Part shown: in pieces, positions 32,484 through 53,099 of the stretch
Layout: every line of letters starts with the position of its first letter
How positions within the stretch are numbered: the first letter of the stretch is position 1
Assembly (NCBI RefSeq): GCF_000429025.1
Contig: NZ_KE386835.1
Location: 372,001 to 436,000, forward strand
Length of the DNA: 64,000 bases
Reading direction: 5' to 3'
Source: Actinospineispora spinosispora DSM 44797
GTDB taxonomy: Bacteria; Actinomycetota; Actinomycetes; Mycobacteriales; Pseudonocardiaceae
Made by a program: the position numbers and the translations under genes
Notes under the pieces: generated by a model
What the model was told of the DNA's origin: nothing
Seen by the model: the letters and a program-made list of their open reading frames with translations, nothing else
The model's database searches: none

Positions 32484-34153
32484 ACGCCCGCCTGATTGTC
32501 GTTGCGGTCGCGGCGCTGCTCGCGCTGGCCGGCTGCTCGGGCAGTCACAGACTCCCGCCACCGTCGGGAGCCGGAGCCGGGGCGGGGGTCAGCGACATCG
32601 GCGTCAAACCGCGCGACGAGGTGCGTGACGGCGGTGACCTGCGCTGGCCGCTGGACAGGATGCCGGACAACTTCAACTACCTGCAGTTCAGCGGCGCCAC
32701 CGAACAGACCGCGAGCGTCGTCCGTGCTGTGCTGCCGACACTGTTCTCCGGCACCGCGAGCGGCGGCACCCGGATCAACCCGGACTACCTCACCTCGGCG
32801 AGCGTCACGTCCACCACACCGCAGACGGTCACCTACTGGATCAACCCGAAGGCCGTCTGGAGCAACGGGACCCCGATCACCTGGCACGACTTCGACGCGC
32901 AGTGGCGCGCGCTGAACGGCAGCGACCCGGCCTACCAGGCGGCAGGCCAGACCGGATACCGAGACATCGCCTCGGTCCAGCCCGGGACCGACAACAAGCA
33001 GGTCATCGTCACCTTCTCCCGCACCTACGCGGAGTGGAAGGGACTGTTCAGCCCGCTGTACCCGGCGGCGGCCAACTCCGATCCGGCGCTGTTCAACTCC
33101 GGCTGGATCAACCGGATGCCCTACACAGCGGGCCCGTTCCAGCTGGACTCGATCAACCCGGCAACCAAGACGATCACCCTGAAGCGCAGCGACAACTGGT
33201 GGGGCGCACCGGCAAAGCTGAACCGGATCATCTTCCGGGTGCTCGACCGGGGTGCCCTGCCGGACGCGCTGGCCGCCAACCAGATCGACTTCTACAAGAT
33301 CGGGTCCAGCGTCGACCTGCTCAAACGCGCTCAGTCGCTGCCCGGCATCACGATCCGGCAGTCACCGGACCGCGAGTACAACCAGATCACGTTCAACGGC
33401 TCCCCCGGCAGCGTCATGGCCGACCAGGCGCTGCGCCAGGCCATCGCCAAGGGCATCGACAGGGTCGCCATCGCCACCCAGCTGGTCGGCCAGATCGTGC
33501 CGAACCCGCAGGCCGACGGCAACCACATCTACGCGTTCGGTTCGAGGCGCTACCGCGACAACTCCGACGTCCTGCCGTTCAACACGGTCGCCGCCGGTCA
33601 GGAACTGGACGCGCTCGGCTGGGTGCAGAACGCCCCGAACGCCATCCGCATCAAGAACGGCAGACCCCTGCGGCTCCAGCTCGTCGAGGGCACGCCGGAC
33701 CCGGTCAGCGAACAGATCAACGAGCTCGTCCGCACCCAGCTGCGCCAGATCGGCGTCGACGTGTACATCCGGCAGGTCCCGCTCACCCAGCTGTCGAACC
33801 AGTACCGGGCAGGCGACTTCGACCTCACCACGTTCGCCTGGCAGAACGGCAGCACCCCGTTCAGCAGCAGCCGCGGCCTGTACGCGAAACCCGACGGCCG
33901 CAACGTGCAACAGAACTACGGCCGCATCTACAGCCCCGAGATCGACGCCCTGTACAGCCAGGGCCTCGCGGAGCTGGACGACGGCAAACGAGCGTCGATC
34001 GCCAACCGCATCGACCGGCTGATCTGGGCCGAGGTCCACCACCTGCCCCTGTATCCGAGCACCGGGACCTACGCGGTGCGCTCCAACCTGGCCAACTTCG
34101 GCGCGCCCGGCTTCGCCGACGTCGACTACATCAACGCGGGGTACCTCAAGTGA
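32480..34153 (+). CDS. Family 5 solute-binding lipoprotein, paralogue 1
   Basis: A 557-residue extracytoplasmic receptor (SBP_bac_5). The signal peptide ends in the lipobox LALAGC with the lipidated cysteine at 19. The mature protein starts with the motif shared by all five paralogues, here [17 protein letters not shown], then NFNYLQF. Domain landmarks are [34 protein letters not shown] and [16 protein letters not shown] at 32471-32475 precedes the GTG at 32480, which overlaps the ATPase stop. The ligand is unknown; a peptide is likely by family. Confidence 0.93.
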
Positions 34154-35832
34154 TCAACCGACGCCGAGCCTTACAGGGCGGCAGCCTGCTCGCCGCTTCG
34201 CTCTTCCTCGCCGCGTGCGGCGGCAGCTCCGGCGGCCAGCTGAGCAGCGCGGGGCAGGGCGCCGGGCACAGCGACATCAACGCGAAGCCCCGTGACCAGG
34301 TTCGCGATGGCGGCGATCTGCGGTTCCCGCTGGACTACCTGCCGAGCAACTTCAACTACAACCACTTCGACGGCGCCGATGTCGAAGGGTTCCTCGTCGA
34401 GACCGCGCTCATGCCGAACCTTTTTCCGAGCACACAGGACGGTGGGTTCCGCCTCAATCCGGATTACCTGACCTCTGCGGAGCTGACCTCAACGTCACCG
34501 CAAGTCGTCACCTACACGATCAACCCGAAGGCTGTTTGGAGTGACGGCACCCCCATCACCTGGCGTGACTTCGAAGCACAGTGGAAAGCTCTCAACGGGA
34601 GCAACCCGGCCTTCCTCATCGCCAGCAAGACGGGCTACGAAGACATCTCATCGGTAGCCAGGGGCAGGGACGACAAGCAGGCTGTCGTGACCTTTGCCCG
34701 AGTGTTCTCCGAATGGCAGGCGCTGTTCAGTTTGTTGTACCCGGTGACAACCAATTCCGACCCGGTTGCCTTCAACAGCAGCTGGGTCAAGAAGTTCCAG
34801 GCAACAGCGGGACCATTCAAGGTCACCGCATTCGATCAAACAGCCCAGACACTCACCCTGAGCAGGAACGAACGCTGGTGGGGCACGCCCGCCAAACTGG
34901 ATCGCATCATCTTCAAAGTCGTTGACCGCTCCGCACTCGCCGACGCGATGGCCAACAACGAGTTGGACTTCTATCCGATTGGATCGAGCGTCGACTTGAT
35001 GCGCCGCGCGCAGACCACACCCGGCGCTGTGATCCGCGAATCGCCTGAGCGGCTCTACAACCAGATCACGTTCAACGGAGCGCCCGGGGCGATCCTGTCC
35101 GATGTGCAGCTGCGGCAGGCTATCGCCAGGGGAATCGATCGCCATGAGATCGCGCGTCGGCTGATCGGCCAGATCGTGCCCCAGGCGTTCACCCTGGACA
35201 ACCACATTTACGCGTACGGCGCGGCTCACTACCAGGACAACTCGGGTGTGGTGGCCTTCGATCAGGCCGCGGCCAATCGCGAGCTCGATGCGCTCGGTTG
35301 GACCCGGCCGGCGCCAACCGCGATCCGTGTCAAGAACGGTCGCCCGCTTCAACTGCGACAGGTCGGAGACGCGGCGAACCCGATCGGCGATTTGATCGAT
35401 CGCACCGTGGCCGATCAACTCAGCCAGATCGGAGTAGGCACGACTTCGATCAGACTGAGTAGCCCGCAGAAGAACGACGCGATCCACTCCGGTGATTTCG
35501 ACCTGATCGGGTTCGGTTGGCAAAGCACCTCCACCCCGTTCAGCAGCAGCCGGGGGCTCTACGCCGAGCCACTCGGCGATGCGGTGCAGCAGAACTACGG
35601 TCGCATCTTCAGTCCAGAGATCACCGCACTGTTCGAACAAGGCATCCGTGAGCTCGACGAGACCAAGCGGGCCGACATTGGAAACAAGGTCGACAAACTG
35701 ATCTGGCAGGAGGTCCATCACCTGCCGCTCTATCCCGGAACCGGCGCCTACGCGGTCCGCTCCACACTCGCCAACTTCGGGGCGCCGGGCTTCGCGGACA
35801 TCGACTTCGTCAACGCCGGGTTCGTCAAGTGA
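34150..35832 (+). CDS. Family 5 solute-binding lipoprotein, paralogue 2
   Basis: A 560-residue receptor, second in the array. Unlike the others its signal has a twin-arginine-like start ([10 protein letters not shown]) before the lipobox LFLAAC (Cys 23), so it may use the Tat route. The shared motif [17 protein letters not shown] follows. Landmarks are NPKAVWSDGTPITWRDFEAQ, WWGTPAKLDRIIFK and LRQAIARGIDR. From about 34380 to 35700 its codons use A or T in third position more often than its neighbours. GTG overlaps the previous stop. Confidence 0.93.
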   Translation: MINRRRALQGGSLLAASLFLAACGGSSGGQLSSAGQGAGHSDINAKPRDQVRDGGDLRFPLDYLPSNFNYNHFDGADVEGFLVETALMPNLFPSTQDGGFRLNPDYLTSAELTSTSPQVVTYTINPKAVWSDGTPITWRDFEAQWKALNGSNPAFLIASKTGYEDISSVARGRDDKQAVVTFARVFSEWQALFSLLYPVTTNSDPVAFNSSWVKKFQATAGPFKVTAFDQTAQTLTLSRNERWWGTPAKLDRIIFKVVDRSALADAMANNELDFYPIGSSVDLMRRAQTTPGAVIRESPERLYNQITFNGAPGAILSDVQLRQAIARGIDRHEIARRLIGQIVPQAFTLDNHIYAYGAAHYQDNSGVVAFDQAAANRELDALGWTRPAPTAIRVKNGRPLQLRQVGDAANPIGDLIDRTVADQLSQIGVGTTSIRLSSPQKNDAIHSGDFDLIGFGWQSTSTPFSSSRGLYAEPLGDAVQQNYGRIFSPEITALFEQGIRELDETKRADIGNKVDKLIWQEVHHLPLYPGTGAYAVRSTLANFGAPGFADIDFVNAGFVK

Positions 35833-37478
35833 GGGCGCGGTTGGCCGTGCTGCTCGCGGTCAGCGCGGTCGCGTTGGCTGCCTGTGGCGGCGGGACGTCG
35901 ACGCTGACCAAGACCACTCAGCAGATCGACGTCAACCCGCACCCCCGCGACGACGTCCGGGACGGCGGCACGCTGCGGCTGCCGCTGGACATCTTCCCGA
36001 ACAACTACAACTACAACCAGATCGACGGCACCAACAGCGACATCTCGAACCTGTCCGAGGCGTTGCTGCCGTGGCCGTTCACCCTGGCCCCCGACGGCAC
36101 CGACGTGATCAACCGGGACCTGCTCACGTCAGGGGAGGTCACCTCGACCTCGCCGCAGGTCGTCACCTACACGATCAACCCGAAGGCCACCTGGAACGAC
36201 GGCACGCCGATCAGCTGGCGGGACTTCGAGGCGTACTGGAAATCGCAGAACGGGCGCGATCCGGCCTATCTGACCTCGGGGACGACCGGATACCAGGACA
36301 TCACCTCGGTCGCGCGGGGAGTGGATGACAAACAGGCGGTCGTGACGTTCGGCAAGCCCTTCGCCGAGTGGAAGAACCTGTTCAGCCCGTTCATGCCCGC
36401 GTCGGTCACCTCGACGCCGGTCGCCTTCAACACCGCGTGGAAGACCAGCATGCCGGTGAGCGCGGGGCCGTTCACCATCGAGTCGATCGACCAGACCCGC
36501 AAGACGATCACGTTGAAGCGGGACCCGAAGTGGTGGGGCACGCCGGCGAAGCTGGATCGGATCATCTTCTCCCAGTACGACCGCAGCGCCCTGCCCGATG
36601 CGCTGGCGAACAACGAGCTGGACGCCTTCGACATCGGCAGCGACCTCAACCTGCTCCGCAGAGCACAGACCACACCGGGGGCAGTGGTCCGTGACGCTCC
36701 CTCCGGATACCGCTACCAGGTCACGCTGAACGGCGGTGGCGGCGCGTTGCTGTCCGACGCGAGACTGCGCCAGGCGATCGCCCAGGGCATCGACCGCGCC
36801 GCGGTGACCACGCAGATGATCGGCCAGATCGAGCCCGACGCGAAACCGGACGGCAACCATCTCTACATGCCGGGCACCAAGGACTACCAGGACAACGCCG
36901 GGGCGCTCCCCTATGACCCGGCGCATGCCGAGCAGGTACTCGACTCGCTCGGCTGGGTCCGCAACGGCGCGGTCAGGCAGAAGGACGGCAAGCAGCTGAC
37001 GCTTCGCCTCGTGTTCGGCGAGGCGGTCACGAACGTCGACGTCGGCAAGGCGATCCAGAATCAGCTGGCGAAGATCGGGGTAACCGTCGAGCTGCACCAG
37101 CTACCGGTCACCGAGCTGTTCCCCAACATCACGACCGGCAACTTCGACATGGCGTTCTTCGCCTGGAGCTACAACGGCAGCCCGCTGAGCAACTCGTTCA
37201 ACATCTACGGCAGCCCGATCGGCAACCTCGTCCAGGAGAACTACGGACGGGTCGGCACACCAGAGATCGACGCGCAGTTCACGCAGGGCATCTCCGAGCT
37301 GGACGACGCCAAGCGGGCGCAGCTCGGCAACAACGCCGATCGCCTGATCTGGCAGCAGGCGCACAGCGTCATGCTCTACGCCCGGCCCGGCGCCGTCGCG
37401 ATCCGGAGCAACGTCGCCAACTTCGGGGCCTTCGGGCTCGCCAACCGCAACTACATCGACGCGGGGTTTCTGAAGTGA
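35829..37478 (+). CDS. Family 5 solute-binding lipoprotein, paralogue 3
   Basis: A 549-residue receptor. Lipobox VALAAC gives Cys 19. The shared motif reads PRDDVRDGGTLRLPLD followed by NNYNYNQIDGTNSD. Landmarks are NPKATWNDGTPISWRDFEAY, WWGTPAKLDRIIFSQYD and LRQAIAQGIDR. It is closest to paralogue 4: both share NSDI, LFGE- or VFGE-type strands and the QQAHSVM segment near the end, so they come from the most recent duplication. GTGA overlaps at both ends. Confidence 0.93.
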   Translation: MRARLAVLLAVSAVALAACGGGTSTLTKTTQQIDVNPHPRDDVRDGGTLRLPLDIFPNNYNYNQIDGTNSDISNLSEALLPWPFTLAPDGTDVINRDLLTSGEVTSTSPQVVTYTINPKATWNDGTPISWRDFEAYWKSQNGRDPAYLTSGTTGYQDITSVARGVDDKQAVVTFGKPFAEWKNLFSPFMPASVTSTPVAFNTAWKTSMPVSAGPFTIESIDQTRKTITLKRDPKWWGTPAKLDRIIFSQYDRSALPDALANNELDAFDIGSDLNLLRRAQTTPGAVVRDAPSGYRYQVTLNGGGGALLSDARLRQAIAQGIDRAAVTTQMIGQIEPDAKPDGNHLYMPGTKDYQDNAGALPYDPAHAEQVLDSLGWVRNGAVRQKDGKQLTLRLVFGEAVTNVDVGKAIQNQLAKIGVTVELHQLPVTELFPNITTGNFDMAFFAWSYNGSPLSNSFNIYGSPIGNLVQENYGRVGTPEIDAQFTQGISELDDAKRAQLGNNADRLIWQQAHSVMLYARPGAVAIRSNVANFGAFGLANRNYIDAGFLK

Positions 37479-39124
37479 GGGCGCGGCTGATCGTGCTGCT
37501 CGCCGTCAGCGCGCTGGCCTTGACGGCCTGCGGCGGCGGGTCGGCGGTCCAGGACCGGACGGTCCACCCGATCGACATCAACCCGCACCCGCGCGACCAG
37601 ATCCGGGACGGCGGCACGCTGCGGCTGCCGATCGACATCTTCCCGAACAACTACAACTACAACCAGGTCGACGGCACCAACAGCGACATCCTCGCCATCA
37701 CCGAGGCGACGCTGCCTTATCAGTTCACCACGATGCCGGACGGCGGCGTGGTGCTGAACCACGACTACCTGACCTCGGCCGTACTGACCTCCACGGCACC
37801 GCAGGTGGTGACCTACACGATCAACCCGAAGGCCACCTGGAGCGACGGCACACCGTTCAGTTGGCGTGACTTCGAGTCCTACTGGAAGTCACTGAACGGC
37901 AGCAACCCCGCCTACCTGGTCTCGGGCACCGTCGGCTACCAGGACATCACCTCGGTGACCCGAGGCGTCGACGACAAACAGGCCGTCGTCACGTTCGGCA
38001 AGCCGTTCGCCGAGTGGCAGGGCCTATTCAGCCCGTTCGCACCGTCCTCGCTCACCTCGACCCCCGAGGCGTTCAACACGGCGTGGAAGTCCACACTGCC
38101 GGTCACAGCGGGGCCGTTCACGATCGACTCGATCGACCAGACCCGCAAGACCGTCACGCTGAAACGGGACCCGAAGTGGTGGGGCACCCCGGCGAAACTG
38201 GACCGGATCATCTTCACCCAGTACGAGCAGAGCGCACAGGCCGATGCGCTGGCCAACAACGAGCTCGACTACTACGAGATCGGCGCCGATCTCAACCTGC
38301 TGCGCCGCGCTCAGACCACACCCGGTGCCGTCGTCCGTGACGCCCCGTCCCAGTACAGCTACCAGGTCACGATGAACGGTGCCGGCGGGGCGCTGCTCTC
38401 CGATCTGCCGCTGCGTCAGGCTGTCGTGCAGGGCATCGACCGCACGGCGATCACCAAGCAGATGATCGGCCAGATCGAGCCGGACGCCAAGCCCAACGGC
38501 AACCACCTGTACAACCCGGGGTCCAAGTACTACCAGGACCACGCCGGTGAGCTGCCATTCGATCGGGCGAAGGCGGAGCAGACCCTCGACTCGCTCGGCT
38601 GGGTCCGGGCAGGGGCCGGCAGGCAGAAGGACGGCAAGCAGCTGACGCTGCGGCTGGTGTTCGGAGAGTCCCCCACCAACCAGGACATCGCCAAGGCGAT
38701 CCAGAACCAGCTCGCCCAGATCGGCGTCACGGTCGAGCTGCACCAGCTCGGCGTCGCGGAGCTGTTCCCGAACATCACGACCGGCAACTTCGACCTGGCG
38801 TTCTTCGGTTGGGGTACGACCTCGAGCCCGCTGAGCAGCTCGGTGAACATCTACGGCAGCCCGATCGGCGACAACGTCCGGGAGAACTACGGGCGCATCG
38901 GCACGCCGGAGATCGATGCGCTGTACGACCAAGGCATCACCCAGCTCGACGACACGAAACGAGCGGAGATCGGCAACCGGATCGACAAGCTCGTGTGGCA
39001 GCAGGCCCACAGTGTCATGATCTACACCCGTCCGGGCGCGGTCGCGGTGCGCGGCAACCTGGCCAACTTCGGCACGTTCGGGCTCGCCGATCGCAACTAC
39101 ATCGATGCGGGGTTCCTGAAGTGA
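37475..39124 (+). CDS. Family 5 solute-binding lipoprotein, paralogue 4
   Basis: A 549-residue receptor of exactly the length of paralogue 3. Lipobox LALTAC, Cys 19. The shared motif is PRDQIRDGGTLRLPID, then NNYNYNQVDGTNSD. Landmarks are NPKATWSDGTPFSWRDFESY, WWGTPAKLDRIIFTQYE and LRQAVVQGIDR. Differences from paralogue 3 cluster around residues 230-280 and in the pocket-lining segment DLAFFGWGTTSSPLS, which may reflect different ligands. GTGA overlaps at both ends. Confidence 0.93.
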   Translation: MRARLIVLLAVSALALTACGGGSAVQDRTVHPIDINPHPRDQIRDGGTLRLPIDIFPNNYNYNQVDGTNSDILAITEATLPYQFTTMPDGGVVLNHDYLTSAVLTSTAPQVVTYTINPKATWSDGTPFSWRDFESYWKSLNGSNPAYLVSGTVGYQDITSVTRGVDDKQAVVTFGKPFAEWQGLFSPFAPSSLTSTPEAFNTAWKSTLPVTAGPFTIDSIDQTRKTVTLKRDPKWWGTPAKLDRIIFTQYEQSAQADALANNELDYYEIGADLNLLRRAQTTPGAVVRDAPSQYSYQVTMNGAGGALLSDLPLRQAVVQGIDRTAITKQMIGQIEPDAKPNGNHLYNPGSKYYQDHAGELPFDRAKAEQTLDSLGWVRAGAGRQKDGKQLTLRLVFGESPTNQDIAKAIQNQLAQIGVTVELHQLGVAELFPNITTGNFDLAFFGWGTTSSPLSSSVNIYGSPIGDNVRENYGRIGTPEIDALYDQGITQLDDTKRAEIGNRIDKLVWQQAHSVMIYTRPGAVAVRGNLANFGTFGLADRNYIDAGFLK

Positions 39125-40788
39125 GAGTTCGGCTCGTCGTCGCGCTGGTCGCCGCGTCCCTGGTCCTGACCGCCTGCGGGGGCAGCGGCGGTGACCGGCT
39201 CAGCACGCCGAGCCACGGCACGCAGGACATCAACCCGAAGGACCCCGCGACCCTGCGCGACGGCGGTGACCTGCGCATCGCGGTCGACTATCTGCCGAAC
39301 AACTACAACTGGAACCAGATCGACGGTCACGACGACGAGGGCCGACAGGTCGCGTCCGCGCTGATGCCGCAGGCGTTCAAGGACGCGCCGGACGGCGGCG
39401 TGGCGTTGAACACCGACTACGTGACGTCCGCCGAGGTGATCTCCACGTCGCCGCAGGTCGTGCGCTATCACGTCAACGACAAGGCGGTGTGGTCGAGCGG
39501 TCGGCCGATCGACTGGCGCGACTTCGCTGCTCAGGTCAGCGCCAACAACGCGCACGATCCGGCGTATCTGGTCGCCGACAAGTCCGGCTACGACCAGGTC
39601 GCGAAGGTCGAACGCGGCGAGACCGACAAGGACGTGCTGGTCACCTTCGCCCGTCCGTACTCGGAGTGGCAGGGCCTGTTCTATGCGCTCTACCCCGAGG
39701 AGACCAACTCCGATCCCTCGGCCTTCAACACCGGCTGGCTCGCGGCGCCGAAGGAGACGGCGGGCGCATTCAAGGTCGGCGCCGTCGACCAGGTGGCGAA
39801 GACCATCACGCTGGTCCGCAACGAGCGCTGGTGGGGTGACAAACCCCGGCTGGACCGGGTCATCTTCACCGCCACCGCCCGCCAGGCGTTCGCCGACCGG
39901 CTGGCGAACAACGAGATCGACATCTACGAGATCGGCTCGGACGTCGACCTGTACCAGCGGGCGCGCACGATTCCCGGCGCCGAGGTCCGGCAGGCGACGC
40001 CGAAGCAGTACCTGCACATCACGTTCAACGGCGCGCCGAACGCGCGACTCGCGGACGTGCGCCTGCGTCAGGCGGTCGCCAGGGGGATCGACACCCGCGC
40101 GATCGCCCAGCGGATCATCGGCCCGATCGTCCCGATGCTGACCCCGATGGGTAACCACATCTATCCGATCGGCTCCACGGGGTATCGGGACAACTCGGGA
40201 CCGCAGCACTTCGACCAGGCCGCCGCCGGCCGGCAACTGGACGCGTTGGGCTGGGTCCGACCGTCGCCGACCGCCGTCCGTGCGAAGGACGGCCAGCCGC
40301 TTCAGCTCACGATGCTGATCTCCAGCGGCAACCCGATCGCCGAGCAGGTCGGCAAGATCGTTCTGGACCAGCTCGCGCAGATCGGGGTGCAGGTCGTCCT
40401 GAACGCCGTCCCGCTGAACCAGTTCTTCCCCAGCTACGTCAACGTGGGCAACTTTGACCTGACGACGTTCCAGTGGGTGCAGAACTCGGCGCCGTTCTCC
40501 AACAGCCTCAACGTCTTCCAGGAGCCCACGGGCACCGACATCGGCAACAACTTCGGCCGGGTGTACGACCCGAGGATCGGTCCGCTGTTCGCCAAGGGGT
40601 TCGCCGAGCTGGACGATGCGAAGCGGATCGAGATCGGCAACGAGATCGACCGGGTCATCTGGGAGGAGGTCCACGACCTGCCGCTCTACCCGCAGACCGG
40701 CGCGTTCGCGGTCCGCTCGACCCTGGCGAACTTCGGCGCGAAGGGCCTAGCCGACTGGGACTACGTCCACGCCGGCTACACCCAGTGA
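39121..40788 (+). CDS. Family 5 solute-binding lipoprotein, paralogue 5
   Basis: A 555-residue receptor, last in the array and the most divergent. Lipobox LVLTAC, Cys 19. The shared motif is DPATLRDGGDLRIAVD, then NNYNWNQIDGHDDE. Landmarks are NDKAVWSSGRPIDWRDFAAQ (other copies have NPK), WWGDKPRLDRVIFT and LRQAVARGIDT. The GTG overlaps the stop of paralogue 4. A hairpin about 75 bases downstream may end the operon. Confidence 0.93.
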   Translation: MRVRLVVALVAASLVLTACGGSGGDRLSTPSHGTQDINPKDPATLRDGGDLRIAVDYLPNNYNWNQIDGHDDEGRQVASALMPQAFKDAPDGGVALNTDYVTSAEVISTSPQVVRYHVNDKAVWSSGRPIDWRDFAAQVSANNAHDPAYLVADKSGYDQVAKVERGETDKDVLVTFARPYSEWQGLFYALYPEETNSDPSAFNTGWLAAPKETAGAFKVGAVDQVAKTITLVRNERWWGDKPRLDRVIFTATARQAFADRLANNEIDIYEIGSDVDLYQRARTIPGAEVRQATPKQYLHITFNGAPNARLADVRLRQAVARGIDTRAIAQRIIGPIVPMLTPMGNHIYPIGSTGYRDNSGPQHFDQAAAGRQLDALGWVRPSPTAVRAKDGQPLQLTMLISSGNPIAEQVGKIVLDQLAQIGVQVVLNAVPLNQFFPSYVNVGNFDLTTFQWVQNSAPFSNSLNVFQEPTGTDIGNNFGRVYDPRIGPLFAKGFAELDDAKRIEIGNEIDRVIWEEVHDLPLYPQTGAFAVRSTLANFGAKGLADWDYVHAGYTQ

Positions 40789-49803: not shown

Positions 49804-50526
49804 TCACTCGGTCAGACGCGCCCGCAGGGTGGCGAGCTCGTCCGACGGCATGCCGTGGCGCAGCAGCCAGCCCTCGGCGGCGCCGTCCGGGTCCAGGTCG
49901 GCCAGCAGAGCCGTCATGACCTGGGGCGGGCAGCGGTAGAGGTCGATGTCGGCCGGGTCGATCTGGTACTCGGTGCCGACGCCTCGGCGCAGCACTGCTT
50001 CGAGGGCCTCGTTGGACAGCGCGTAGTCCTCGATGACCGCTTCCCTGCGCACCCCGACGGCGTCCTCCACGAGCGCGCAGAACACCCCGGTCCGGTCCTT
50101 GCCCGCCGCGCAGTGCACCAGGGCGGGACCGGCGTCCGGCTCGGTGAGCAGCCGCACGGCGGCCAGCATGTTCTCCGGACGGTCCGCGAGGTAGCCGCGG
50201 TAGTTGAACAGCTTCGGGTCCTCGTCGTCCCTCGGGATCGGCCGCTGCCCGGTCGGCAGCACGGTCAGGTGCTCGGTGCGCACTCCGGCGCGTTCCATCG
50301 GGGTCGGTCCGTCTCGGTCGACCTCCTTCGGCGAACGCAGGTCGATGACCGTGCGGATGCCGAACTTCTCGACCAGGAACTCGACGTCCGACTCGGTCAG
50401 CTCGTGCAGCCGCGCGCTGCGCAGCACCTGCCCGAACCGCGTGTGGCCGCCCCCGGTCAGTGGCAGACCGCCGAGGTCCCTGACGTTCTCCACACCTTCG
50501 AGCCGCACCCAGCGCTGTTCCGTCAC
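49804..50526 (-). CDS. Tyrosine-protein-phosphatase-like protein
   Basis: A 240-residue phosphatase of the Y_phosphatase3 / MptpB type. The N-terminal motif ENVRDLGGLPLTGGG and the P loop HCAAGKDRTGVF (CX5R with lysine and aspartate, as in MptpB) are clear. The general acid aspartate is probably in DDEDPKLFNYRGYL. The GTG at 50526 lies 17 bases after the stop of the ligase-kinase fusion, so it is probably co-transcribed. Substrates could be phosphoproteins or phosphoinositides, as reported for MptpB. Confidence 0.88.
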   Translation of the reverse strand: MTEQRWVRLEGVENVRDLGGLPLTGGGHTRFGQVLRSARLHELTESDVEFLVEKFGIRTVIDLRSPKEVDRDGPTPMERAGVRTEHLTVLPTGQRPIPRDDEDPKLFNYRGYLADRPENMLAAVRLLTEPDAGPALVHCAAGKDRTGVFCALVEDAVGVRREAVIEDYALSNEALEAVLRRGVGTEYQIDPADIDLYRCPPQVMTALLADLDPDGAAEGWLLRHGMPSDELATLRARLTE

Positions 50527-50543: not shown

Positions 50544-52157
50544 CTATCGAGGCAGTCGCAGTGTGATCGTGGTCCCGTCCCCTGGGGTGGTGCGCACCTC
50601 CAGCGCGGCGGGCGGCCCGGGTGCGGCGGCCAGCCGTTCCCGGACGTCGGCGACGGTGTCGGCCAGGCGTTCCCGGTCCATTCCCACGTCGTCGGCGACC
50701 GTCACGACGCACCCCTTCCGGCCGGCCTGGGCCGTGATGGACACCGTGCCGCCGCTCGGCGTGCCCTCGATGCCGTGCCGCACCGCGTTCTCCACCAGCT
50801 GCTGCACCGCGAGGAAGGGCAGCGGCACATCGAGCAGCTCGGGGTCGACCCGGCGCACCACGTGCAGCCGATCACCGAACCGGGCGCCCTCGACCGCGAG
50901 GTAACGATCGACGTTTGCGAGCTCGGCGCCGAGTGTCGTCGCCTCACCGCCGGCCCGGAACGAGTAGCGGGTGTAGGCGGCGAACTCATGCAGCAGCTCG
51001 CGCGCCCGGTTCGGGTCGGTGCGGATGTAGGAGGCGATCGTGGTGAGCGTGTTGTAGACGAAGTGCGGTGAGATCTGGGCCCGCAGCGCCCGCACCTCGG
51101 CCTGCGCCAGCCGGACCGCCTCGTCCAGCGCGGCCAGGTCACCGGCACCCGACCGAGCCTCGGCGTCGGACGTCGCCTCGCCGAGCACCCATGGGCCGCT
51201 CACGCTGGCCGGGTGCGCGTCGGCAAGCAGACCCAGCCAGCTCGCGTTCCGCAGCCGCCCGTCGATCCCGCGCCGCCGGTAGGACACCTCGCCGACCAGC
51301 GCCGGAGTCACCCAGCGCACGTCCACCACGTCGGCGGGCGGATCGACGAACGGGCAGTCGGCGCTGCCCAGCCCGGCCAGCCGTTCACTCAGCTCCGCGC
51401 GGGCCCAGCGGTCGAGCCCGGTCCCCACGCGGCCCGCGTAACGCAGCCCGGACGCTCCCGGCACGCCGACCAGCAGGGCGCCCGGTTCGGCGCCGTGTGC
51501 TTTCGGGATCCAGCCGCCCAGCACGACGTCCTGGTTCTGCCGGGGCAGGGTCTGCACCCACGCCCGGGTCCGCCTGCCCGGCTGGTAGCGCGAGTCGAGC
51601 CGTTTGGCGAGCACCCCGGACAGGCCGTGCAGCTGCGCCGCGTGCAGCACCGTCTGACCGTCGGTGTCGACGAAGAACGGCGGCAGCTGCGCGGGGAGAC
51701 CGTCGAGGTTCAGCTCCCCCAGCAGCTCGCGGCGACGGCGGAACGGCAGGTCGAGCGTGGACTGCCCGTCGGCGTAGAGGAGGTCGGTCAGATAGAACGC
51801 GACCGGGACCTTGCCCAGCAGCGCCGGTGACGGCTTCGACGCGGCGGTCCGCTGCCGCAGCAGCGCGGTGCTCGGCCGCTGGAGCCGGTCGAGCGCGACG
51901 ATCTTCCCGTCCAGCACCAGCGGGCCGTGCCGGTCGGCGAGCAGCGCGAGAGGGGCCAGGTCCGGGTAGCCGGCGGTGATCGACCGGTCCGAACCGCTCA
52001 GCAACCGGGCCCGTCCGGGCGTCAGATAGGCGATCGTGCGCAGGCCGTCCCAGTAGAACTCGAACGCCCACGCCGACCCGGCCGGCATCGCACCGTCGGC
52101 GGCGAGCATCGGCCGGATCGGCTGAATGCTCGGATCGGGCGGCGGGCAGGCCTGCAC
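50544..52157 (-). CDS. Inactive DNA-ligase module fused to LytS-type histidine kinase
   Basis: A 537-residue cytoplasmic fusion. Residues 12-315 align with LigD-type ATP-dependent DNA ligases, both the adenylation domain (PMLAADG, AWAFEFYWDG) and the OB fold (VGEVSYRR, DGRLRNASWLGL). Catalytic residues are lost: the motif I lysine is Tyr35, the motif III glutamate is Lys85 (DGK), the motif IV glutamate is Ser180 (SGVLAK), and the motif V lysines are Gln202 and Leu204 (WVQTL). Residues 355-537 are a His_kinase (PF06580) type: AQISPHFVYNTL with His365, then VENAVRHG. GTG 52157 follows TAGGCT after seven bases. A phosphatase gene follows; no response regulator is near. Confidence 0.85.
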   Translation of the reverse strand: MQACPPPDPSIQPIRPMLAADGAMPAGSAWAFEFYWDGLRTIAYLTPGRARLLSGSDRSITAGYPDLAPLALLADRHGPLVLDGKIVALDRLQRPSTALLRQRTAASKPSPALLGKVPVAFYLTDLLYADGQSTLDLPFRRRRELLGELNLDGLPAQLPPFFVDTDGQTVLHAAQLHGLSGVLAKRLDSRYQPGRRTRAWVQTLPRQNQDVVLGGWIPKAHGAEPGALLVGVPGASGLRYAGRVGTGLDRWARAELSERLAGLGSADCPFVDPPADVVDVRWVTPALVGEVSYRRRGIDGRLRNASWLGLLADAHPASVSGPWVLGEATSDAEARSGAGDLAALDEAVRLAQAEVRALRAQISPHFVYNTLTTIASYIRTDPNRARELLHEFAAYTRYSFRAGGEATTLGAELANVDRYLAVEGARFGDRLHVVRRVDPELLDVPLPFLAVQQLVENAVRHGIEGTPSGGTVSITAQAGRKGCVVTVADDVGMDRERLADTVADVRERLAAAPGPPAALEVRTTPGDGTTITLRLPR

Positions 52158-52164
52158 AGCCGGC

Positions 52165-52170
52165 AGCCTA
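52165..52170 (-). promoter_or_regulatory. -10 element of the ligase-kinase fusion gene
   Basis: TAGGCT on the minus strand, seven bases before the GTG at 52157, with no ribosome site; leaderless geometry. It supports this start over codons lying in the palindrome further upstream. Confidence 0.5.
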
Positions 52171-52190: not shown

Positions 52191-52236
52191 GCCGTGAGTG
52201 TTCCGGGCTGCCGGGGCAACTCGGAACACTCACGGC
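52191..52236. repeat. Palindrome related to family 1; probable terminator
   Basis: GCCGTGAGTGTTCCG and CGGAACACTCACGGC form a perfect 15-base stem around 16 bases. The outer CGTGAGTGTT is shared with family 1, but the centre differs. It follows the small exported protein gene, so it probably ends that transcript. Confidence 0.7.
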
Positions 52237-52252
52237 TGACGGATGTGTCCGG

Positions 52253-52651
52253 TTAGCAGGTACCGCTGCCGCCGAGCAGACCACCCAGCGTCGCCAGCAG
52301 ACCGGAGACCACGCCGCAGCTGCGGTTCGGAGTCGCCTGCGGTGCCTGCGCGGATGCTCCACCGAAGGACGTCGTGACCGCGCCACCGGGGCCGCTGCCG
52401 CCACGCTGAGCGGAGATGCCGCCCTGGCCGCCGTTGTCAGCGGGCAGCGCGTTGGTGTAGCGGTACTGGTTCGGGTCCCGGGGGTCCTGCATGGACACCG
52501 CGACCGGGTGGTCGGCCACACCGGACTGCGGACCACCGGCGAACGGCCGGTTCTTCGAGTCGTTGGAGTGGGCATTGAACGCGATGATGCCGATGACCAG
52601 CGCGAGGGCCGCGGCGGCGAGCGCGCCTACCACCCCAAAGGAACGCAGCAC
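52253..52651 (-). CDS. Small exported or membrane-anchored protein
   Basis: A 132-residue protein with one hydrophobic segment near the N terminus (GVVGALAAAALALVIGIIAF) and a low-complexity exported part rich in Gly, Ser, Ala and Asn. Two cysteines remain, in NRSCGVVSG and at the very end (GGSGTC), so a disulfide or a lipid-independent surface tether is possible. The GTG at 52651 is chosen because GGAG lies six bases upstream. I do not recognise the family. Confidence 0.7.
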   Translation of the reverse strand: MLRSFGVVGALAAAALALVIGIIAFNAHSNDSKNRPFAGGPQSGVADHPVAVSMQDPRDPNQYRYTNALPADNGGQGGISAQRGGSGPGGAVTTSFGGASAQAPQATPNRSCGVVSGLLATLGGLLGGSGTC

Positions 52652-52718
52652 AACTTGCTCCACTCGTGTGAGGGTACTTACCCATGTTAACGACTGACTT
52701 AGGTATGAGTTACTCGAC

Positions 52719-53099
52719 TCACACGGAAGGGTGACGATGATGGTCGGGCACTGCTCTGACCAGGTGCTCGGCATACCCGAATGCCTGATCGGCCAGTGCC
52801 ACCAGGTGACCGCTGGTAACCCGATAGAGCATTCGACGTCCCTCCCGATGCGAACTCACCAGGCCGGCCAGTCGTAGCCGCCCCAGGTGCTGGGAGACCG
52901 ACGACCGGGATGCCGCGACCTGCGCGGTCAAGGTACCGACATCCTGCTCGCCGCCGGCAAGCAGCCGGATCAAGCTCAGCCTGGTGGGGTCGGCGAGATG
53001 TGTGAGCACCTGAGCGGCGACTGCGAGCACCTCGCCGTCACTGCCGTCATCGGGCTGTCGCACAGCACTTGCCGTTGCCATGTCGTTGTGCGCGCGCAT
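52719..53099 (-). CDS. ArsR/SmtB family metalloregulator
   Basis: A 126-residue winged-helix repressor. DNA-binding region: LADPTRLSLIRLLAGGEQDV, then AASRSSVSQHLGRLRLAGLV and a wing SHREGRRMLYRV. The C-terminal helix ends with a His-rich tail (PDHHRHP), and Asp/His pairs on that helix resemble the alpha-5 zinc site of SmtB and CzrA. It is divergent from a cation efflux gene. Zinc, cobalt or nickel release of repression is expected. ATG 53081 is an alternative start. Confidence 0.88.
   Translation of the reverse strand: MRAHNDMATASAVRQPDDGSDGEVLAVAAQVLTHLADPTRLSLIRLLAGGEQDVGTLTAQVAASRSSVSQHLGRLRLAGLVSSHREGRRMLYRVTSGHLVALADQAFGYAEHLVRAVPDHHRHPSV

Follow-up and report, generated by a model that had tools for sequence, protein, structure and literature searches.

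A LigD-type pseudoligase joined to a LytS-type transmitter in Pseudonocardia and its sister genera

Among described signalling proteins, the phosphotransferase ChpT has a domain resembling an ATPase that was not found to hold ATP (PMC3433190), and DivL is a histidine kinase that has been turned into a non-catalytic signalling component (excerpts of PMC4211667). As for DNA ligases, crystals of LigD with the K481M substitution still hold ATP, only the Lys having been changed there (accessible part of PMC8656161). As judged from titles and the openings of abstracts, searches of the open-licence literature found no description of a ligase-kinase fusion, and term searches within PMC7719229, PMC4558063, PMC10211241 and PMC5124664 showed none, in line with a first-pass annotation, which knew of no described kinase with such an architecture.

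In this study, we analyzed such a fusion in the window, a DNA stretch of 64,000 nucleotides. Positions 50544-52157 form one uninterrupted frame of 537 amino acids; coordinates and length had been given correctly before, and the strand is minus. The reading of the protein as a LigD-type ligase half followed by a LytS-type transmitter is fully supported by its sequence. The first-pass annotation had gone further and taken the dead ligase for the sensor of a histidine kinase: the joining of a dead ligase to a transmitter stands, but a working kinase appears doubtful because the G1 and G2 boxes have been lost. The features of the locus are as follows.

50544..52157, minus strand: fusion gene, 537 aa, GTG start at 52157, stop codon at 50544-50546
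51543..52118, minus strand: nucleotidyltransferase (NTase) half of the pseudoligase, residues 14-205 (Pfam PF01068; phmmer; Foldseek)
51198..51542, minus strand: OB-fold half, residues 206-320 (Pfam PF04679 at 225-312; strands in the structural model)
52053..52055, minus strand: motif I codon, Tyr35 replacing the AMP-accepting Lys (alignment; no Lys in 61/61 fusions)
51117..51197, minus strand: variable linker, residues 321-347 (pLDDT <50 at 323-339; dN highest of five segments in 9/12 pairs)
50952..51116, minus strand: DHp (helix-pair) domain, residues 348-402 (PF06580 at 353-431; model helices 338-359, 364-380 and 382-399)
51063..51065, minus strand: codon of the phospho-acceptor His365 (HFxxN in 61/61; the Asn at H+4 is residue 369)
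50547..50951, minus strand: degenerate ATPase (CA) domain, residues 403-537 (Asn457 of the N-box retained; G1 box, G2 box and lid stretch missing)
52165..52170, minus strand: TAGGCT, resembling a -10 element, 7 nt upstream of the GTG (signature of a leaderless promoter)
52192..52235, minus strand: perfect 14-bp inverted repeat, terminator-like, found by eye between the upstream gene and the fusion
49804..50493, minus strand: tyrosine-phosphatase gene (PF13350), 50 bp downstream of the fusion

The start at 52157 is backed by the -10-like element. With several candidate starts per gene allowed, the same signature lies ahead of a start in 23 of the 24 main-lineage Pseudonocardia fusion loci, against a background of 107 among 23152 ATG/GTG codons in these loci (gaps 6-8), and it precedes the start in two of the three genomes of the window lineage. 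The inverted repeat resembles a terminator of the gene that lies upstream. Two further observations concern the surroundings: a 173-aa open frame upstream of the fusion (52253-52774, minus strand) had no Pfam match, and five consecutive frames follow an oligopeptide ABC-transporter gene at 32621-40788, all four of those tested being solute-binding proteins (SBP_bac_5).

The domain search that had been suggested placed DNA_ligase_A_M (3e-17), DNA_ligase_A_C (2e-16) and His_kinase (9e-22) above their gathering scores, in agreement with the adenylation domain, OB fold and LytS-type half that had been read from the sequence. An NTase plus OB fold was recovered by Pfam, phmmer and Foldseek and in the structural model. 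The phmmer search matched the ligase half to 6NHX, 6NHZ and 1VS0 over residues 14-319 (E about 1e-54), and the top Foldseek match of the model (mean pLDDT 88) was 1vs0_B (E 1.9e-30, 39% identity); with the whole model as query, ligases filled the 50 matches listed. The superposition on 1vs0_B gave a TM-score of 0.60 by target length and an rmsd of 12; in our interpretation, the two subdomains stand at another angle to each other in the model. A second model, of the P. dioxanivorans orthologue, had a mean pLDDT of 78. As in LytS-type kinases, PF06580 (77.6 bits) occurs together with a phospho-acceptor His, His365, and the HATPase_c match was marginal (28.0 bits against a gathering score of 26.4). 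No membrane helix was seen on reading the sequence, as had been noted before.

The ligase half lacks the motif I Lys, the Glu of motifs III and IV and the motif V Lys of ATP-dependent DNA ligases of the LigD type. The window protein reads EFYWDG in motif I (Tyr35 for Lys), LDGKIV in motif III (Lys85 for Glu), LSGVLAKR in motif IV (Ser180 for Glu) and WVQTL in motif V (Gln202 for Lys), in agreement with the motif losses called at first, and it falls below the cut-off of the NCBIfam model NHEJ_ligase_lig (194.2 versus 227.75 bits). The motif I residue in 61 distinct full-length fusions was Ala in 39, Gly in eight, Ser in five, Leu in three, Val and Thr in two each and Tyr in one, and one further row, which escaped the motif I pattern, reads Thr. 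Lys was thus found in 0/61, which rules out the possibility that motif I is intact elsewhere in the fusion family. A first count of this motif had covered 38 proteins, as the gene call of L066 lacks motif I; its twin L048 has it. Some fusions retain the motif IV Glu (3/38) or a motif V Lys (2/38).

Comparison with 19 ligases (L023 left out; positions counted if at least 94% conserved in these ligases) showed that 20 highly conserved positions were lost in 38 fusions and that 44 stay conserved in both sets. The lost positions include K35, D37, R55, E85, E180 and K202, although 18 of the 19 ligases had been picked by a Lys-containing pattern, so that their Lys is not independent evidence. R55 presumably belongs to the nucleotide pocket. 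Given that LigD with K481M holds ATP, a missing Lys would by itself be compatible with nucleotide sensing, but the absence of the other motif residues speaks against such a role. Because the lost positions include motif residues expected to hold the nucleotide, ATP, which had been named as a candidate input, is unlikely to be the ligand sensed by the pseudoligase.

To describe the distribution of the fusion, a profile of 19 fusions was searched against 390 genomes of the family, the best three candidates per genome being scored among the matches listed, so that a much diverged fusion could escape. Full-length matches were present in 81 of the 390 genomes (rows counted by hand; two of the 81 contain a stop codon). 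Pseudonocardia, the window's own genus, contributed 53 of 62 genomes, the remainder having the ligase part only (five) or weaker matches only (four, among them G027, where part of the ligase half is matched at 54% identity). Actinomycetospora (g27) had the fusion in 16 of 18 genomes, with one more cut by a contig end, and the sister genera g37 and g67 in 10/11 and 2/2 (12/13 together). Across the 42 other genera of the family that were covered (297 genomes), the search detected no full-length fusion; the best match there (E 2.6e-109) was ligase-only, compared with E 5.7e-149 for the weakest full-length fusion. Samples from the order (397 genomes) and the phylum (396) yielded none outside the known genera at E up to 1e-100; one ligase-only match beyond them, in genus g30, keeps the Lys. 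A profile scan of genome contigs gave at least 80 loci with at least 13 fusions, most of the rest being kinase-only matches.

The 61 distinct full-length fusions include the window protein and two from genome G412, and they rule out an assembly artefact as well as the frameshift that the first-pass annotation had named as a way in which its reading could fail. Neighbourhood and alignment counts refer to 38 loci plus the window, L076 and L091 having been left out of 40 loci; both are in the set of 61 and agree with it. In the ligase-half tree, 38 fusions formed one clan against 20 ligases (100/99); the canonical kinases, 23 in number, likewise grouped as one clan in the tree of the kinase half (99/95). 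L197, which lacks the Lys pattern and is part of the second fusion of G412, stood outside the ligase tree. The trees of both halves fit one fusion event, and a single fusion would be the simplest reading. The aligned sequences thus show a LigD-type ligase that lacks the motif I Lys and further residues of the catalytic motifs, has retained NTase and OB fold and is joined, apparently through one event, to an actinobacterial LytS-type transmitter.

The window transmitter is 60% identical (residues 308-537) to a canonical LytS-type kinase of the same genome, L021, and its DHp domain 82% identical to that of this kinase. HFxxN, that is the phospho-acceptor His and the Asn at H+4, was found in 61/61 distinct fusions, so that no DivL-like replacement of the His occurs. 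The ATPase domain is different. Canonical kinases have the N, G1 and G2 boxes in 23/23 cases when a broadened G2 pattern is used (a narrow one missed five of the 23), whereas the same pattern found G2 in 0/39 aligned fusions. The window protein keeps the N-box only: Asn457 is present, as is His365, both as annotated before, and the G1 (DxGxG) and G2 boxes are missing together with the intervening lid stretch. The Asn is absent as well from the two closest relatives of the window protein (G011, G325), and in main-lineage Pseudonocardia the Asn is lost in 24/24 and the lid region shortened, with pseudoligase and His kept. A G1-like pattern occurs in three of these 24 proteins: L094 and L095 have it at the site, where they read DRGHG, and L067 has it elsewhere. 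Asn and G1, but not G2, are retained in all 12 aligned fusions from the sister genera, of which there are three. The working sensor kinase that was first proposed could point to Asn457, to the HATPase_c match just over its cut-off and to these 12 proteins; however, the missing boxes and lid of the window protein, the loss of the Asn in its closest relatives and the further decay in the main lineage make this explanation very doubtful. With N and G1 in place, the fusions of Actinomycetospora and of the Ku-linked genera g37 and g67 would be the likeliest to act as autokinases. Elsewhere, the kinase half is probably dead too and its ATP site probably lost. The kept fold, His and H+4 Asn next to a degenerate ATPase would bring the protein closer to a phosphotransferase or phosphatase of the Spo0B/ChpT kind than to an autokinase.

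Conservation within the helix pair was uneven in the main lineage. Identity of its 24 proteins to the canonical-kinase consensus was 0.06 before the His, 0.67 from the His to the end of helix 1, 0.80 in the loop and start of helix 2, 0.30 at the end of helix 2, 0.49 over residues 405-430 and 0.24 over 431-470. The values were flatter in the 15 other fusions, including that of the window (0.65 before the His, 0.58 after it, 0.79 in the loop, 0.78 at the end of helix 2, 0.67 over 405-430 and 0.57 over 431-470). Therefore, selective conservation around the His is a main-lineage result. Regulators of histidine kinases dock on the stretch from the His to the start of helix 2; however, this stretch is also the dimer core, and its conservation does not prove regulator docking.

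Estimates of dN/dS (Nei-Gojobori without GC-bias correction, hand-chosen pairs) were 0.12-0.36 for the ligase half, 0-0.24 for DHp and 0.12-1.17 for the end of the CA domain in ten pairs outside the window lineage, and 0.14-0.21 in four pairs of canonical kinases. These ratios demonstrate purifying selection on the coding sequences of the ligase half and DHp. The window lineage (three genomes) evolves faster than the rest: its two pairs gave 0.42 and 0.63 for the ligase half, 0.49 and 0.52 for DHp, 0.70 and 0.67 for the CA end, and 0.48 and 0.66 for the whole protein. Such whole-protein ratios, together with neighbours that differ from those of the main lineage, might suggest a decaying remnant whose function has already been lost in the window's own lineage. 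We consider this highly improbable, as the open frame is kept in all three genomes, the -10 signature precedes the start in two of them, and the window protein gave a high-confidence model.

With regard to gene neighbourhood, Ku lies directly upstream of the fusion on the same strand in 10/10 fusions of g37, with about 0.3-0.4 kb between domain matches and gaps of 21-85 bp between the genes in the five of five measured (one Ku was confirmed by Pfam). It is convergent with a fusion in both g67 genomes, the other fusion of G412 having no Ku beside it. In Actinomycetospora, Ku was found 8.0-13.7 kb from the fusion on the same contig in 15 of 16 cases and on another contig in the 16th. The fusion was near Ku in none of seven Pseudonocardia genomes (0/7). 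Based on the position of the gene at or near Ku in the sister genera, the fusion may link DNA breaks to gene regulation. In the main lineage, an HAD hydrolase gene directly follows the fusion in 22 of 24 loci and a GH65 gene in the other two; GH65 comes next after HAD, and the gaps between fusion and neighbour are 25-280 bp. A divergent DUF3516 helicase lies directly upstream in 22 of 24, the order being helicase, fusion, HAD hydrolase and GH65 (L057-L071, L073, L075, L089, L090, L092-L096). These neighbours say nothing on DNA breaks. The window lineage has a different locus with the tyrosine phosphatase downstream in 3/3, in the other two genomes after a NIPSNAP gene. A role in phage defence was rejected, since PADLOC returned no match.

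Some Ku regions of the sister genera contain other pseudoligases. In all three Actinomycetospora loci examined and in one g67 genome, a second, separate degenerate ligase adjoins Ku or is found no more than about 1 kb from it (L208:3946-4647, L207:10996-11685, L209:4719-5459 and L206:1007-1564). It has no motif I Lys (EVDWAG, EVDWSG or EVRWTG) and is NTase-only in L206 and L208, the two in which the frames were delimited; the counterpart in the window genome, L022, about 50% identical, keeps the Lys. The second pseudoligase-transmitter fusion of G412 (L206:2672-3934) is convergent with Ku, and its C-terminal end looks frameshifted.

Ku linkage bears also on a non-signalling alternative, in which DHp would only dimerise and the protein would be a two-headed binder of DNA ends or Ku that bridges or protects breaks. 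This scaffold would agree with the kept ligase fold and lost catalytic residues, with the decayed ATPase of main-lineage Pseudonocardia and with the finding that a LytTR gene adjoins the fusion in 0/16 genomes. On the other hand, a dimeriser has no evident need of a phospho-acceptor His and an H+4 Asn, which are kept in 61/61, and in the main lineage the stretch after the His is kept more than the rest. We regard the scaffold as possible but rather unlikely.

If the transmitter does signal, a partner would be expected among the LytTR regulators, although, in contrast to LytS-type kinases, the fusion has no LytTR gene beside it. In the window genome there are two proteins with PF06580 and two with LytTR; of the latter, one alone has a receiver domain, and its gene belongs to the operon of the canonical kinase. 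In three of the 16 genomes, all of sister genera, the sole LytTR lies close to the canonical kinase; the remaining 13 have 2-5 LytTR matches, and the partner is not unique there. Judging from these counts and positions in the window and sister-genus genomes, the regulator of the canonical kinase would be the likeliest partner of the fusion. The fusion could also tune this system without carrying phosphate, either by binding the phosphorylated LytTR regulator as a DivL-like reader, for which DivL itself is a precedent (accessible part of PMC4211667), or by pairing with the canonical LytS kinase through DHp. The close DHp similarity in the window genome and the presence in 16/16 genomes of a PF06580 protein scoring higher than the fusion are consistent with this possibility. 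However, DivL has a Tyr in place of the His, which is never replaced in the fusion, and the DHp of three main-lineage examples is only 49-55% identical to that of the window genome's canonical kinase; the possibility is therefore quite unlikely in our opinion.

The explanation that we favor, tentatively and a little short of an even chance, is a clade-specific signalling adaptor made from two dead enzymes, in which a pseudoligase would govern a phosphotransferase or phosphatase devoid of kinase activity. The pseudoligase half would dock on Ku and/or on DNA with nicks or breaks, which it would leave unsealed, and its state would be passed via the linker to the DHp dimer. The dimer would not phosphorylate itself; like Spo0B and ChpT with their regulators, on which this step is modelled, it would exchange phosphate with the LytTR regulator of the parental LytS/LytTR operon or strip phosphate from it, and DNA-break status would thereby be coupled to a metabolic two-component system. 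The absence of the motif I Lys (0/61), the invariant HFxxN (61/61), the 20 lost versus 44 kept ligase positions, the main-lineage identity contrast, the dN/dS values, the receiver-LytTR in the canonical operon and the Ku linkage in sister genera argue for the adaptor. Against it stand the lack of Ku proximity in the seven Pseudonocardia genomes, the much weaker helix-pair contrast in the 15 other fusions, the several LytTR in 13 of 16 genomes and the faster evolution of the window lineage. The full relay, in which DNA ends are read by a pseudoligase associated with Ku and LytTR phosphorylation is set by a DHp dimer devoid of kinase activity, so that end-joining is coupled to central metabolism, seems on the unlikely side to us. 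If true, DNA damage would reach two-component signalling by a route distinct from RecA/LexA; we know of no LytTR regulator that takes DNA breaks as its input. If the adaptor holds, a DNA-repair enzyme fold would have been recruited as a non-catalytic input for phospho-signalling, both enzymes being retired while other features were kept. The gradient among genera, from N and G1 kept in the sister genera to the Asn lost in the main lineage, makes stepwise kinase loss directly testable.

Compared with known systems, the fusion would, as judged from its sequence, share with ChpT and Spo0B a dimeric helix pair with a phospho-acceptor His; PMC3433190 describes these two proteins without a ligase domain. 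DivL has lost its His (Tyr instead, in the excerpts available), whereas the His of the fusion is invariant. Of the actinobacterial LytS-type kinase and LytTR regulator of the same genome (L021/L201), the kinase is close in sequence, at the 60% and 82% identity given above for residues 308-537 and DHp; unlike this kinase, the fusion has a pseudoligase for its N-terminal part, has lost G1, G2 and the lid and has no adjoining LytTR. Finally, the mycobacterial LigD ligase domain (PDB 1VS0, 6NHX and 6NHZ) shares its fold with the ligase half and is 38-39% identical to it, but the fusion has lost the motif I Lys, the motif III and IV Glu and the motif V Lys, and its ligase half is joined to a transmitter.
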